A stretch of 64,000 bases of DNA from Rothia aeria. Lineage in GTDB: Bacteria > Actinomycetota > Actinomycetes > Actinomycetales > Micrococcaceae. Positions within the stretch are counted from its first letter, which is position 1. Each line of letters opens with the position of its first letter. A program made the position numbers and the translations under genes. Of the stretch, positions 6,950 through 11,129 are shown piece by piece. Location: positions 1,178,001 through 1,242,000 of the forward strand of contig AP017895.1 of NCBI GenBank assembly GCA_002355935.1. The letters run 5' to 3'. Below the pieces are notes generated by a model. That model was not told the origin of the DNA and did no database searches. It saw only the letters and a list, made by a program, of their open reading frames with translations.

Positions 6950-7157
6950 TTTACTATCCTCTGATTTGATATGTCGGAACTATTTATTAAATTTTAACAG
7001 GAAGTGCAGAGCTCTGGTGTTGCCCGTTAAGTCTATCCAGCTGCAGTAGCTGGCGGTACAGGGTGTACTATCGTTGCACATTCTATGAATAGTCTGGTGA
7101 CGTTTTGAACGATAGGCCGTTTGAGCTACATATTATCCGTAATATATCACTCATAAT

Positions 7158-7624
7158 TTATTGAGAATCAATCCAGTGATTTTTAATTAACCAATGTTTT
7201 AAATCATCCATGAAATAAGGGTTTATATCCCTTAGGGATGGAAATCTTTTTCATATTTTTTCATGGCTTTTGGAAAAAAATTATAAAACTCTTGGCCTAT
7301 TATTTTACGCTGTGCAGGAACGTTGTTTATATAGGGTTTGTAATCTATTTCTTGTGTGACAATGTCTATATATATAAAATTATCACTTGAATAGTATCTG
7401 GCACCGGATTTCCATCCGCTCCAACTGTCTAAACATCTCACGCAAATCCCTATATTTACGGGAAAATTACTAAATTTATTGATTATCTTTTCTATTCCCT
7501 CTAGTTCTTCCCTGAGCTGTGAAACATGAGTCCAAGAAGGAGAGTCTGAAGTTGTCTTAAATTCCACGATAAATAATCTTTTATGGATTGCACTTGTTGC
7601 TGAAGAGATACTTGTGCGGGGCAA
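7158..7624 (-). CDS. hypothetical protein of the AT-rich island, frameshifted near its end
   Basis: The frame from ATG 7624 stops at 7232 as read. Adding one C to the CCC run near 7236 continues it through RDINPYFMDDLKHWLIKNHW to TAA at 7158, about 155 residues. Central features are LFIVEFKTTSDSPSWTHVSQ, an amphipathic helix LREELEGIEKIINKF and a Trp/Tyr-rich patch (CLDSWSGWKSGARYY). Family unknown. The start is uncertain: the first 15 residues come from a more GC-rich stretch at the island edge and may be a fusion to foreign sequence. Confidence 0.55.
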
Positions 7625-7714
7625 CCGCTCGTGTGGAATGCCCCGCGCTTAGAGATATAGGTAACGCAGCGACTGCTGGTTCTGGGTTGAGGTGTTATAA
7701 CATGCTGCGCAGAC

Positions 7715-8137
7715 TTAGCAGACCGGTCCAGTGAACTTTTCTCCAGGGCCCTGGCCAGGTTCGTCAGGGATAGGGGACGCTTCACGGAATGCCAACTGTA
7801 ATGTGCGTAGCCCGTCGCGTAGAGGTGCGGCGTGCTGTGAGCCTATTTCGGGTGCAGCGGCTGTAATAAAGCCTGCAAGTGCTGTGATGAGTTTCCGAGC
7901 CTCGTCAAGATCTTTGAGGTCCTCAGCGTTCTGTTCGGCACCTAATCCGCATTTGATAGCGGCGGCGCTCATCAGGTGAACGGCTGCGGCGCCAATAATT
8001 TCGATGGCTGGAACATCCGCGATGTCGCGCATTTGGGCGTTGAGGGCTTCAAGCTGTTCGGCGTCCAAATCTGTGTGTCCGTGTACCGGTTTGCCGTGCT
8101 CCGCCTCGAATGTAAACTTCTGTGTTTCGTTAGTCAT
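7715..8137 (-). CDS. DUF1844-family protein
   Basis: 140 residues from ATG 8137 (MTNETQKFTFEAEHGKPV). The DUF1844 core is clear: IEIIGAAAVHLMSAAAIKCG, then a conserved acidic DLKDLDEARKLITALAGF helix and a C-terminal LRDGLRTLQLAFREAS. It commonly lies beside sseB and infC in Micrococcaceae, so it marks the return to core genome after the AT-rich island. Helical, probably cytoplasmic; function not established. The frame stays open upstream to 8488, but that part is not protein-like and is excluded. Confidence 0.85.
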   Translation of the reverse strand: MTNETQKFTFEAEHGKPVHGHTDLDAEQLEALNAQMRDIADVPAIEIIGAAAVHLMSAAAIKCGLGAEQNAEDLKDLDEARKLITALAGFITAAAPEIGSQHAAPLRDGLRTLQLAFREASPIPDEPGQGPGEKFTGPVC

Positions 8138-8423
8138 GCCTCTAAGAATCTCATAGTTCACAGGGTTTATAAAAGAAATATAGGTCTCTACAGCTCCGCG
8201 CTGTGATGGCAGGTGATGCGGGGCAGAACTGGTACTTAGGGGAATCAGGGTGTTGCGCACGAAAGCAGCCAGCGGTTCCCTTGTATTAGGCGGCAGCATG
8301 GGGTAAACTCTTGTACTGTTTGCAAGTGGATTGTACTCCCACCCGCATTCACCGGTTCGTACAGTCACCGTAGCGTGGCTAAAGGGACAAAAGTCACTAA
8401 GACTACGGTGGTCGGGTTTTAGA

Positions 8424-8476
8424 ACGACCAACCGGTCGTAAGTGTAGCCTCCGCTTGTGACATGCGGGGGCTTTTT
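8424..8476 (+). promoter_or_regulatory. infC leader with attenuator-like terminator
   Basis: Two hairpins precede infC. The first is ACGACC (8424-8429) with GGTCGT (8434-8439). The second is CCTCCGC (8448-8454) with GCGGGGG (8464-8470, one G-T pair), followed at once by CTTTTT, a textbook intrinsic terminator on the plus strand. The upstream gene is divergent, so this terminator can only act on the infC leader transcript. It therefore looks like a transcription attenuator; the rest of the 394-base gap (8138-8531) shows nothing else clear. Confidence 0.6.
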
Positions 8477-8531
8477 AGTTCCCGTCAACGGATATATTCA
8501 CGGGGAAACCCACTATGTACAGGAGTTAGTC

Positions 8532-9179
8532 ATTAGCGAACCGCGCATTAATGATCGAATCCGTGTTCCGGAGGTCCGACTTGTTGGCCCCGGCGGTGAA
8601 CAGGTAGGCGTCGTGCCTTTGGCCGATGCCCTGCGCCTTGCAGAGGACGCTGAACTTGACTTGGTCGAGGTAGCGCCGAACGCAAAACCGCCAGTATGCA
8701 AGCTGATGGACTACGGCAAATACAAGTACGAAGCGGCTGTTAAAGCCCGTGAGTCCCGCAAGAAGCAGGTTAAAGCCGTTCTGAAGGAAATCCGTTTCCG
8801 GCTGAAGATTGATACCCATGACTACGAAACCAAAGTGGGGCACGCACGTCGTTTCCTTTCTGGCGGTGACAAAGTCAAGGCAATGATTCAGTTCCGCGGT
8901 CGTGAACAGCAGCGCCCCGAGATGGGTGTGCGTCTACTGGAACGCTTGGCCGAAGAGCTGGCTGAGGTGAGTACTGTTGAGTCTCGCCCCCGCCAAGACG
9001 GCCGTAACATGGTGATGGTGCTGGCTCCGCTACGCGGTAAGGCAGAAGTACGCCGTGGACAGGGCGGCGGTGGACGCAAGGGTCGTGAACGTATTGATAC
9101 GACCAAGGCAGAGCCTGTAACGAACTCGCTGGCGGACGCAATGCCCGCCGAGTTGAAAGCGCAGGCTTCCGCAGAATAG
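8532..9179 (+). CDS. infC: translation initiation factor IF-3, ATT start
   Basis: IF-3 binds the 30S subunit, prevents premature 50S joining and checks the start codon. The conserved N-terminus [18 protein letters not shown] is preceded by ATT at 8532 with AGGAG at 8521-8525, six bases upstream; no ATG or GTG fits. An AUU start is the known device by which IF-3 represses its own translation. 215 residues: the N-domain, a Lys-rich linker ([16 protein letters not shown]) and the C-domain ([31 protein letters not shown]), then a Gly/Arg and Ala/Glu-rich tail. First gene of infC-rpmI-rplT. Confidence 0.95.
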
Positions 9180-9346
9180 AATTCGGTGGGAACACCCCGC
9201 TGGCGCATACATGCGGCGGGGCTATAGTCCTGCGGGTTCTGAGGTATGAATCCTCACTATTTCCGTACCGTGGGGAAAGTGTCCCTTTCCTCAGTAAAAC
9301 TACCCTGTGCGTATGTGCGGGGGTGATTGTAAGGAGAACGGCAGCT

Positions 9347-9541
9347 ATGCCGAAGCAGAAGACCCACTCTGGTGCTAAGAAGCGCTTCAAGCTCACCGGC
9401 AGCGGCAAGGTTAAGCGCCAGCAGGCGAACCGCCGCCACTACCTGGAGCACAAGTCCTCCCGTCTGACCCGTCGTCTGGCATCCGACCAGATCGTGACCG
9501 GTGGTCAGGCAAAGGTTGTCAAGAAGATGCTGGGTAAGTAG
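9347..9541 (+). CDS. rpmI: ribosomal protein L35
   Basis: 64 residues, full length for L35, from ATG 9347 with AAGGAG ten bases upstream. Typical sequence: [20 protein letters not shown] and a basic C-terminal half ending VVKKMLGK. A structural protein of the 50S subunit. Second gene of the infC operon. Confidence 0.97.
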
Positions 9542-9653
9542 GCTACCGCTTACTTCTCGCTAGAGGCGGGTGCATTCCCGCACCGACGATGAAAGACTCG
9601 CTCCTACAGGCTGGTTCTGAGGCCTTGTAGGACATAAGACGAAGGAGACACAC

Positions 9654-10037
9654 GTGGCACGTGTGAAGCGCGCGGTTAACGCGCACAAGAAGCGCCGTAC
9701 TATTCTCGACCGAGCATCCGGCTACCGCGGTCAGCGTTCGCGCCTGTACCGTAAGGCTAAGGAACAGGTCACCCACTCGCTCGTTTACAGCTACGACCAC
9801 CGTCGTAAGAAGAAGGGCGATTTCCGCCGTCTGTGGATTCAGCGCATTAACGCTGCATCCCGTGCGCAGGGTTTGACCTACAACCGTTTCATTCAGGGGC
9901 TCAAAGCTGCTGGTGTTGAGGTTGACCGTCGTATGCTCGCTGAGCTGGCCGTAAACGATACCGCAGCGTTTAACGCCCTGGTTGAGATTGCCAAAAACAA
10001 CCTGCCTGAGGACACCTCCGCGCCGAAGGCTGCATAA
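9654..10037 (+). CDS. rplT: ribosomal protein L20
   Basis: 127 residues from GTG 9654 ([15 protein letters not shown]) behind GAAGGAG. L20 binds 23S rRNA early in 50S assembly and in other bacteria represses its own operon by binding leader RNA. Conserved [17 protein letters not shown] and [13 protein letters not shown] are present. The short hairpin CCTACAGG/CCTTGTAGG just upstream (about 9602-9631) could matter for coupling to rpmI. Confidence 0.97.
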
Positions 10038-10082
10038 AAACAGTTGTTACCCCCCGTCATGTGCGGGGTAATTAAGAGCTTG

Positions 10083-10119
10083 AACGGCTGCCGCATATTG
10101 TATGCGGCAGCCGTTTTGC
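10083..10119 (+). terminator. intrinsic terminator of infC-rpmI-rplT
   Basis: A perfect 15-base stem, AACGGCTGCCGCATA (10083-10097) with TATGCGGCAGCCGTT (10101-10115), three-base loop, followed by TTG. A smaller ACCCC/GGGGT hairpin precedes it. Confidence 0.85.
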
Positions 10120-10190
10120 TGTACTGTGCCTTCCCGAAAGCATCGCGGAAGTGACGGGCATTGGGAGGGCTTTGCCTGTACTCTTGAAGA

Positions 10191-11129
10191 GTGAGTTTTC
10201 TTGAACGAATCAGTTCCCCAGTGATTATGTCGAACCCTCAGGCCGATCGTGTGCGTGATATTGCGAAGCTACGCACCCGTGCTGGCCGTAAACGGGGACA
10301 GTTTTTGGTTGAGGGCCCGCAGGCTGTTCGTGAAGCGCTGCATGCGCACCTGCGCCGCCCGGTGCTGGATGCAGTATACGTGACGGAAGAGGCGTTCGAC
10401 CGCCACCCCGACATTGCCGAGCTATTAGAAGAGGTGCACGGCACACCCACACCCGAGCAGGGGCGCCGTGTTTTTATGCGTGTGGTGACGGACGACGTAC
10501 TGCAAGCGATGGCCGATGCTCTCACTCCTCAAGGTATTATTGCGGTGTCGTTTAAACTGGATGCCCCTGCCGGACGACTGTGGGGTGAGGGGGCGCTGAA
10601 CCCGCGTCTTATTGCGGTGCTTTCACGTGTACAAGATCCGGGAAACGCTGGTACGATCCTGCGGGTGGCTGATGCCGCGGGGGCTGATTTGGTGGTGGCG
10701 TCAAAGGGCACAGTGGATTTATATAACCCGAAGACAGTGCGGGCAACAGCCGGTTCGCTATTCCATGTGCCGCTGATTCAGGGTGTTGATCTTGAAGATT
10801 TTGCGGAGGACGCCAAATCTCAGGGAATGACGGTTTTGGCCGCTGACGGGTACGGTACGGTGGATCTGCAACAACTGGTGGAGTACTCTCTGGCACGCCC
10901 CGCTAATATCGAGACGCCCGTTCCGGCCGGGGTGAAAGGCTCATTCAACTTATCGAAACCAACTGTGTGGTTGTTTGGGAATGAGGCACAGGGGCTTAAC
11001 AGCGAGGAAAAAGCGGCGTCGTCAATGCGCGTGGCGGTTCCTGTCTATGGGGCGGCTGAATCTTTGAACGTGGGCACAGCGGCGGCCGTGTGCCTGTACG
11101 CCTCGGCGATGGCGCAGAACCGCCCCTAG
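10191..11129 (+). CDS. TrmH/SpoU-family RNA 2'-O-methyltransferase
   Basis: 312 residues from GTG 10191. It transfers a methyl group from S-adenosylmethionine to a ribose 2'-OH of rRNA or tRNA. An N-terminal substrate-binding domain (GQFLVEGPQAVREAL) precedes the SPOUT knot motifs: VQDPGNAGTILRVADAAG, WLFGNEAQGL and VPVYGAAESLNVGTAAAVCL. All three motifs are intact. It commonly follows rplT in actinobacteria. The exact RNA target cannot be told from sequence. Confidence 0.92.
   Translation: MSFLERISSPVIMSNPQADRVRDIAKLRTRAGRKRGQFLVEGPQAVREALHAHLRRPVLDAVYVTEEAFDRHPDIAELLEEVHGTPTPEQGRRVFMRVVTDDVLQAMADALTPQGIIAVSFKLDAPAGRLWGEGALNPRLIAVLSRVQDPGNAGTILRVADAAGADLVVASKGTVDLYNPKTVRATAGSLFHVPLIQGVDLEDFAEDAKSQGMTVLAADGYGTVDLQQLVEYSLARPANIETPVPAGVKGSFNLSKPTVWLFGNEAQGLNSEEKAASSMRVAVPVYGAAESLNVGTAAAVCLYASAMAQNRP

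Follow-up and report, generated by a model that had tools for sequence, protein, structure and literature searches.

Upstream of infC-rpmI-rplT in the Actinomycetia: a likely transcription attenuator and divergent homologue of the Firmicutes L20 leader

The window analysed here, by which we mean the whole 64-kb stretch of DNA, carries infC, rpmI and rplT on its plus strand, and the leader region lies between infC and a DUF1844 gene on the minus strand, so that the neighbour of infC is divergent as stated in an earlier note made from the sequence alone. The genes and the elements between them are the following:

7715 to 8137, minus strand: DUF1844 gene, divergent neighbour of infC, with its ATG at 8137
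8281 to 8309, plus strand: predicted promoter, read from the sequence (TTGTAT 8281-8286, 17 nt, TAAACT 8304-8309)
8424 to 8439, plus strand: hairpin of ACGACC (8424-8429) and GGTCGT (8434-8439), present, not a conserved part
8446 to 8476, plus strand: terminator with stem 8446-8454/8464-8472 and T-run 8472-8476, found in 30/30 of the genus set
8532 to 9179, plus strand: infC (IF3), AUU start codon with AGGAG ahead (PF05198, PF00707)
9347 to 9541, plus strand: rpmI (bL35; PF01632)
9654 to 10037, plus strand: rplT (bL20, the likely ligand; PF00453)

The closest named locus is that of Rothia mucilaginosa, whose IF3 is 96% identical. Comparisons within the genus were made on 30 leaders (L001-L030), a set that includes the window as well as some near-identical members and that represents the loci given for 30 of the 34 genus genomes with infC. 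The infC starts that were located are AUU or AUC with a Shine-Dalgarno sequence upstream, and the totals of 107/107 and 292/297 for ATT or ATC are not free counts, since the later start finders required Ile or an AT-codon. Patterns for rpmI and rplT follow downstream of infC in 73 of the 80 named loci; three of the other seven are cut loci and four are without the rpmI pattern only. Just upstream of the infC Shine-Dalgarno sequence of the window lies a small GGG-GAAA-CCC hairpin (8502-8511, plus strand), and GGG-loop-CCC is present within the last 50 nt before infC in 30/30 genus leaders; it has perhaps a role in translation or processing.

Transcription from the predicted promoter is expected to start near 8315-8318, just upstream of 8323. 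In the genus set a TANNNT box precedes the leader motif described below in 30/30 leaders, the chance of TANNNT in random 24-nt windows of these regions being 22%, and TTG is found at promoter spacing in 25/30. The predicted promoter has 7/12 consensus matches and is for this reason absent from a 9-of-12 promoter scan. If it is the promoter used, the terminator sits within the transcribed leader; further infC promoters are mentioned for Streptomyces in passages of PMC5472188.

The plus-strand intrinsic terminator that had been proposed upstream of infC is readily seen in the sequence. AGCCTCCGC (8446-8454) and GCGGGGGCT (8464-8472) enclose a 9-nt loop and form a stem of nine pairs, one of them G-U, with a hairpin energy of -16.9 kcal/mol. 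The T-run at 8472-8476 stands as first described, its first T doubling as the last paired base, whereas the stem had been placed at 8448-8470 and the distance to infC given as 56 bases; the stem is that of 8446-8454 with 8464-8472, and 55 bases separate the end of the T-run at 8476 from the infC ATT at 8532-8534. The 5'-arm pattern is kept in 30/30 genus leaders, each time with a T-run behind it whose end lies 52-61 nt upstream of infC (the hairpins themselves were read by eye), which rules out a chance hairpin and bears out the terminator. The folded leader is more stable than dinucleotide shuffles, with z -2.34 (4/200 equally good) and z -2.71 (3/200). A simple terminator scan of 7000-11000 on both strands returned three hits, under the chance mean of 4.3, and passed over the terminator at 8446-8476 because its 9-nt loop exceeds the permitted loop size of 3-8. 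A match of 8430-8476 to the rdlD antitoxin (22.9 bits, cut-off 50) was rejected as chance similarity of a terminator. The ACGACC/GGTCGT hairpin, suspected earlier of belonging to the switch, is absent from relatives in the genus alignment and was dropped in that role; the strand engaged in the switch is 8323-8330, outside the stretch to which the earlier note referred.

Ahead of the terminator the leader contains a conserved domain, 8323-8417 in the window, of the form CAAGYGGAG-n-CUCCCACC...GGU. It is laid out as AAGN, a helix P2 (GGAG/CUCC), one C and a helix P3 (ACCNN...NNGGU), and it appears in the leader alignments as CAAGYGGA...TCCCACCYG...CGGGT at the leader start. Its parts, together with the strand of the terminator that is complementary to its 5' end, are located in the window as follows:

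8315 to 8429, plus strand: leader domain with P2 and P3, found with model R1 at 29.1 bits and E 5.6e-4 in the 64 kb window (the training rows left the window out and included its genus relatives L016 and L018)
8323 to 8330, plus strand: motif CAAGUGGA, either the AA dimer plus 5' strand of P2 or the 5' strand of the antiterminator
8328 to 8339, plus strand: P2 hairpin, GGA/UCC, 8328-8330 with 8337-8339, from the sequence; its pairs covary in 61 class leaders
8341 to 8417, plus strand: P3, ACCCG 8341-8345 with CGGGU 8413-8417, from R1, sequence and covariation
8450 to 8457, plus strand: UCCGCUUG, 3' strand of the antiterminator within the terminator 5' arm and loop, pairing with 8323-8330

In the window P2 has three pairs and is shorter than the usual GGAG/CUCC, and P3 in this genome carries a long inner hairpin. 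The pattern CAAGYGGAN{4,16}YCCCACC occurs once in the window (0.01 expected) and once in the 2.59 Mb genome, at the infC leader, with none in the reversed control; across 29 genomes 21 match, with a few of the matches elsewhere and some hits in the reversed control as well. At its position the motif CAAGUGGA is present in 30/30 genus leaders. The class was sampled in 68 of 73 genera, four being not among the matches listed and one having a start that was not located, and further families were then added. Of 269 non-redundant regions upstream of infC, 267 contain a loose form of the motif, compared with 12/269 reverse complements and 6, 11 and 9 in shuffles, and 207/269 satisfy a full rule that requires four pairs in P2 and five in P3 (reverse complements 0; shuffles 0, 0 and 2), the window falling outside this rule with its P2 of three pairs. 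Among the 269 regions the loose motif is absent only from L045 and L046, both Nesterenkonia, where a loss of the attenuator is possible.

Aligning the leader in search of covarying stems had been suggested as a check in the earlier note, and across the class the helices do covary. In an alignment of 61 compact leaders (A1), P2 and P3 pair in 94.8% of cells and the covariation score is 0.310, compared with 0.164 (sd 0.009) for shuffles and 0.051-0.118 for slid controls; for P2 and the outer part of P3 these counts favour the structure, because the 61 rows were hand-picked from 147 compact leaders that had passed a scripted filter for five outer P3 pairs including GGT and a minimum of 3/4 P2 pairs. 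The inner P3 helix (columns 40-44 with 56-60), on which rows were not selected, has 48 cells changed on both sides and 88.2% paired. Searches of 56 genomes, one per genus, with R1 yielded a single hit at E<=0.1 in each of 49, always 118-251 nt ahead of an IF3_N match; 25 of these 49 genomes gave no training row. The seven misses include the window's own genome, perhaps owing to its long P3.

The earlier note had likened the leader to the one through which L20 acts in Bacillus, and this likeness has become one of homology through intermediates. RF00558 (L20_leader), with a curated cut-off of 58.7 bits, matches neither the window nor any of 20 Actinomycetia loci at E<=10, and it has no match in the 19 genomes of the relatives set, the control giving matches in 4/14 genomes with B. 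subtilis included. In L300, from another class of the phylum, RF00558 matches with 65.6 bits and thus above the cut-off, about 50 nt upstream of the IF3_N match. It further matches at E<=1, below the cut-off, 11 of 20 infC leaders of other classes that were hand-picked by eye from 40 (best 40.0 bits, E 3.7e-5), and at E<=1 two of the other 20 loci of those classes, L300 and L318. From the opposite side, R1 gives weak hits at E<=1 in 12 of 41 loci of other classes (best 19.2 bits, E 0.018), and its start lies 3 bases from the RF00558 match in L311, L321 and L334, which is the offset implied by both models; L323 differs. A second model, R2, was made from 19 leaders of other classes (alignment A2, with 19 rows from the 25/39 loci that passed a pairing filter, which biases the A2 test and not the R2 searches). 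In a search set of the window and 46 of the 80 named Actinomycetia loci it obtained 25 hits at E<=1, of which 24 fall on the infC motif (best E 1.6e-5), the window being without a hit at E<=1.

PMC7247131 states the L20 signature to be an AA dimer together with two consecutive G-C pairs. The window has both, and in A1 the AA occurs in 61/61 and the pairs in 61/61 and 60/61 rows; the invariance of AAG, CACC and GGU in A1 is partly due to selection because the search patterns demanded these letters. The window also contains the RF00558 core AAG-N-P2-C-ACC-P3-GGU, with a P2 of only three pairs, in the same placement in the infC-rpmI-rplT leader as for RF00558 (Pfam matches on the three genes), and common descent is indicated by L300, the other-class matches and the R2 hits in register. 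Because homology via intermediates, the same layout and the L20 signature coincide, the leader is, as judged from sequence comparison, a distant and divergent homologue of the L20 leader and not a member of RF00558 as modelled. Mimicry of 23S rRNA was considered on a part of the window's own 23S; fragments such as AAG recur, which proves nothing. Two further matches were observed near infC in these searches: L300 has a T-box leader match at 342-575 (92.3 bits, cut-off 93) on the infC strand, downstream of infC, and L308, from another class, has a cspA thermoregulator match at 1-272 upstream of infC (38.8 bits, E 3.7e-7), which is cut at its 5' end, is below the cut-off of 78 and overlaps the end of a cold-shock-like gene by eye.

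The homology bears directly on the identity of the ligand. The same attenuator could respond to IF3 or L35, or to another factor, instead of L20; both proteins are encoded in the operon, and IF3 already regulates infC through its AUU/AUC start in E. coli and Streptomyces (ATC in Streptomyces), as described in passages of PMC5472188. We regard this reading as unlikely in view of the homology between the core and the L20 leader, and because the AA dimer with two consecutive G-C pairs is the stated L20 signature. With L20 as the putative ligand of the attenuator, L20-dependent attenuation and IF3-dependent initiation would act in series.

The two ends of the leader can be connected by a second, competing pairing. 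The duplex of 8323-8330 with 8450-8457 comprises 8 bp, one of them U-G, at -10.1 kcal/mol, and pairing of UCCGCUUG with CAAGUGGA would account for the conservation of the terminator loop. The calculated fold energies of the window are -56.8 kcal/mol for the terminator form (P2+P3) and -54.8 kcal/mol for the antiterminator form, with an unconstrained best of -57.4 kcal/mol, and the window RNA cut at 8462, before the terminator 3' arm, folds as antiterminator. According to this model read-through would be the default, and a ligand holding P2 would cause termination.

Whether the pairing is kept by compensating changes can be read at position 5 of the motif in a leave-one-out test, in which the partner window was set on the other eight positions and the facing base was then read. 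Eight of 267 leaders were dropped for having no terminator and 51/259 for a low score, leaving 208/259 usable, and the associated Fisher values ignore relatedness. C faces G in 77/91 and A in 3/91, T faces G in 43/73 and A in 12/73, and A faces T in 36/44, compared with only 10/164 for C and T. With both-sided changes among C-G, U-G, U-A and A-U, the antiterminator pairing covaries across the class. The A-U cases come in 35/36 from one family (f3) and in one from Brevibacterium (L102), and the U-A cases from Psychromicrobium, Yaniella, Enteractinococcus, Cellulomonas, Isoptericola and others; the independent events are therefore few, yet more than one. Scored against their own terminators, the motifs reach a sum of 3195 compared with 2837 (sd 36) for permuted motifs, 0/1000 permutations being as high, and the own terminator scores higher than the terminator after rplT of the same locus in 55/62, with 2 tied and 5 lower. 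The result is weaker against shuffles of the own arm (mean z 1.74; 126/259 above the 95th percentile). The complementarity is not universal, 72/259 leaders scoring below 10; the terminator finder chose a wrong hairpin in some rows, and some leaders of family f4 have no clear terminator. In family f7, L111 and L123, which are taken for mycobacteria, lack a complement of the 5' motif (low score). In L130 and L133 the terminator reads GGCCCTGC..GCAGGGC ahead of a T-run, and by eye it contains no complement of the 5' motif. All four keep the 5' domain motif, and their antiterminator must therefore differ.

The 72/259 leaders with no good antiterminator partner would fit a long leader whose terminator is partly leaky and not regulated, the conserved domain then serving RNA stability or processing. 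We consider this improbable, given that 5' motif and terminator arm covary and that two mutually exclusive folds are near equal in energy.

A short leader RNA, which the earlier note had named as the telling observation, appears to be on record in Streptomyces. The leader of L160, taken for a Streptomyces on account of this match, is hit by RF02830 (Scr1601) with 171 bits; the match has the orientation of infC, begins 5' of the motif and runs into the terminator T-run (match end 355; T-run 351-356; infC 443). RF02830 does not match the window, and among 20 loci only L160 is over the cut-off (L199 22.4 bits). IF-3 is SCO1600 according to an excerpt of PMC6344877, and PMC8388888, in the part concerned, reports confirmed expression of scr1601 in S. 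coelicolor and a homologue found in a UTR of S. ambofaciens. Most simply, Scr1601, which Rfam files as an sRNA gene, can be read as the infC leader after termination, since its match in L160 ends in the T-run. Taken at face value, this filing and the confirmed expression would speak for an independent trans-acting small RNA that lies before infC by chance. We hold this to be very improbable: 49/49 hits of R1 lie before infC on the same strand, the domain is homologous to a cis leader and the S. ambofaciens homologue is located in a UTR. Ribosome-mediated attenuation through a leader peptide, for which a short GTG-initiated frame from 8327 was noticed by eye in the window, is hardly conceivable and was rejected, as its GTG would exist only where the motif reads AAGTGG, position 5 being T in 86/267 and C in 125/267.

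We thus consider it likely that the region is a 5' leader which attenuates transcription of infC-rpmI-rplT and which is a divergent homologue of the Firmicutes L20 leader; the attenuator-like character ascribed to it at the outset is backed by the TANNNT box in 30/30 genus leaders, the covarying structure and the antiterminator. The attenuator is approximately 160 nt long and ends at the terminator. In the mechanism that we propose, the RNA would begin just upstream of 8323 and the emerging motif CAAGUGGA (8323-8330) would pair with UCCGCUUG (8450-8457), a pairing that would block the 5' arm of the terminator and allow the polymerase to read into the operon. Free L20, when in excess, would bind the AA dimer and the P2/P3 domain and keep the motif in P2, whereupon the terminator at 8446-8476 could form and the operon would be shut; binding would in this way raise termination. 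As to origin, we see about an even chance that the L20 leader already existed before Firmicutes and Actinobacteriota diverged (or passed between them at an early time), that the Actinomycetia rewired its output such that the strand to which the ligand binds, CAAGNGGAG, became the antiterminator through pairing with the terminator arm, and that the attenuator is near class-wide with Scr1601 as its product.

A survey of 2013 (PMC3766115), in the sections considered here, confined L20 leaders to Firmicutes and Thermotogales, included Corynebacteriaceae and Mycobacteriaceae in its set, and suggested re-examining lineages seemingly without such leaders. Among the open-licence papers listed, as far as their passages go, none describes an infC or L20 leader in Actinomycetia; PMC4128351 concerns genes whose 5' UTR attenuation is common to M. 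marinum and M. bovis, of which infC may be one, and PMC13236596 gives predicted attenuators. Three things seem to be new: a divergent variant found throughout the class, the rewiring of its antiterminator, and an account of what Scr1601 is. If the proposed reading is true, it fills the gap of L20 leaders for a large, medically and industrially important class, and an unrecognised attenuator controls IF3, L35 and L20 almost class-wide, in Streptomyces and mycobacteria as well. A filed sRNA, Scr1601, would become an explained attenuator product, and the leader would offer a model for a binding domain that is kept while the expression platform is rewired.

Among known systems the actinobacterial leader is closest to RF00558, with which it has in common the operon, the order AAG-N-P2-C-RCC-P3-GGY and a terminator before infC; the logic of the B. 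subtilis-type infC leader is likewise attenuation according to parts of PMC10931766 and PMC4538822. In contrast to RF00558, P2 and P3 of the actinobacterial leader are GC-rich, and the switch appears to be wired differently: in our own reading of the printed RF00558 consensus, the terminator arm carries a GCGGG that is complementary to CCCGC of the P2 loop, whereas in the actinobacterial leader AAG and the 5' strand of P2 pair with the terminator arm. With the L20 leaders of gamma- and deltaproteobacteria it shares the AA dimer and the two G-C pairs, as far as they are treated in the part of PMC7247131 available; unlike the actinobacterial leader, these have other scaffolds, and control in E. 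coli is translational, as outlined in a portion of PMC10931766.
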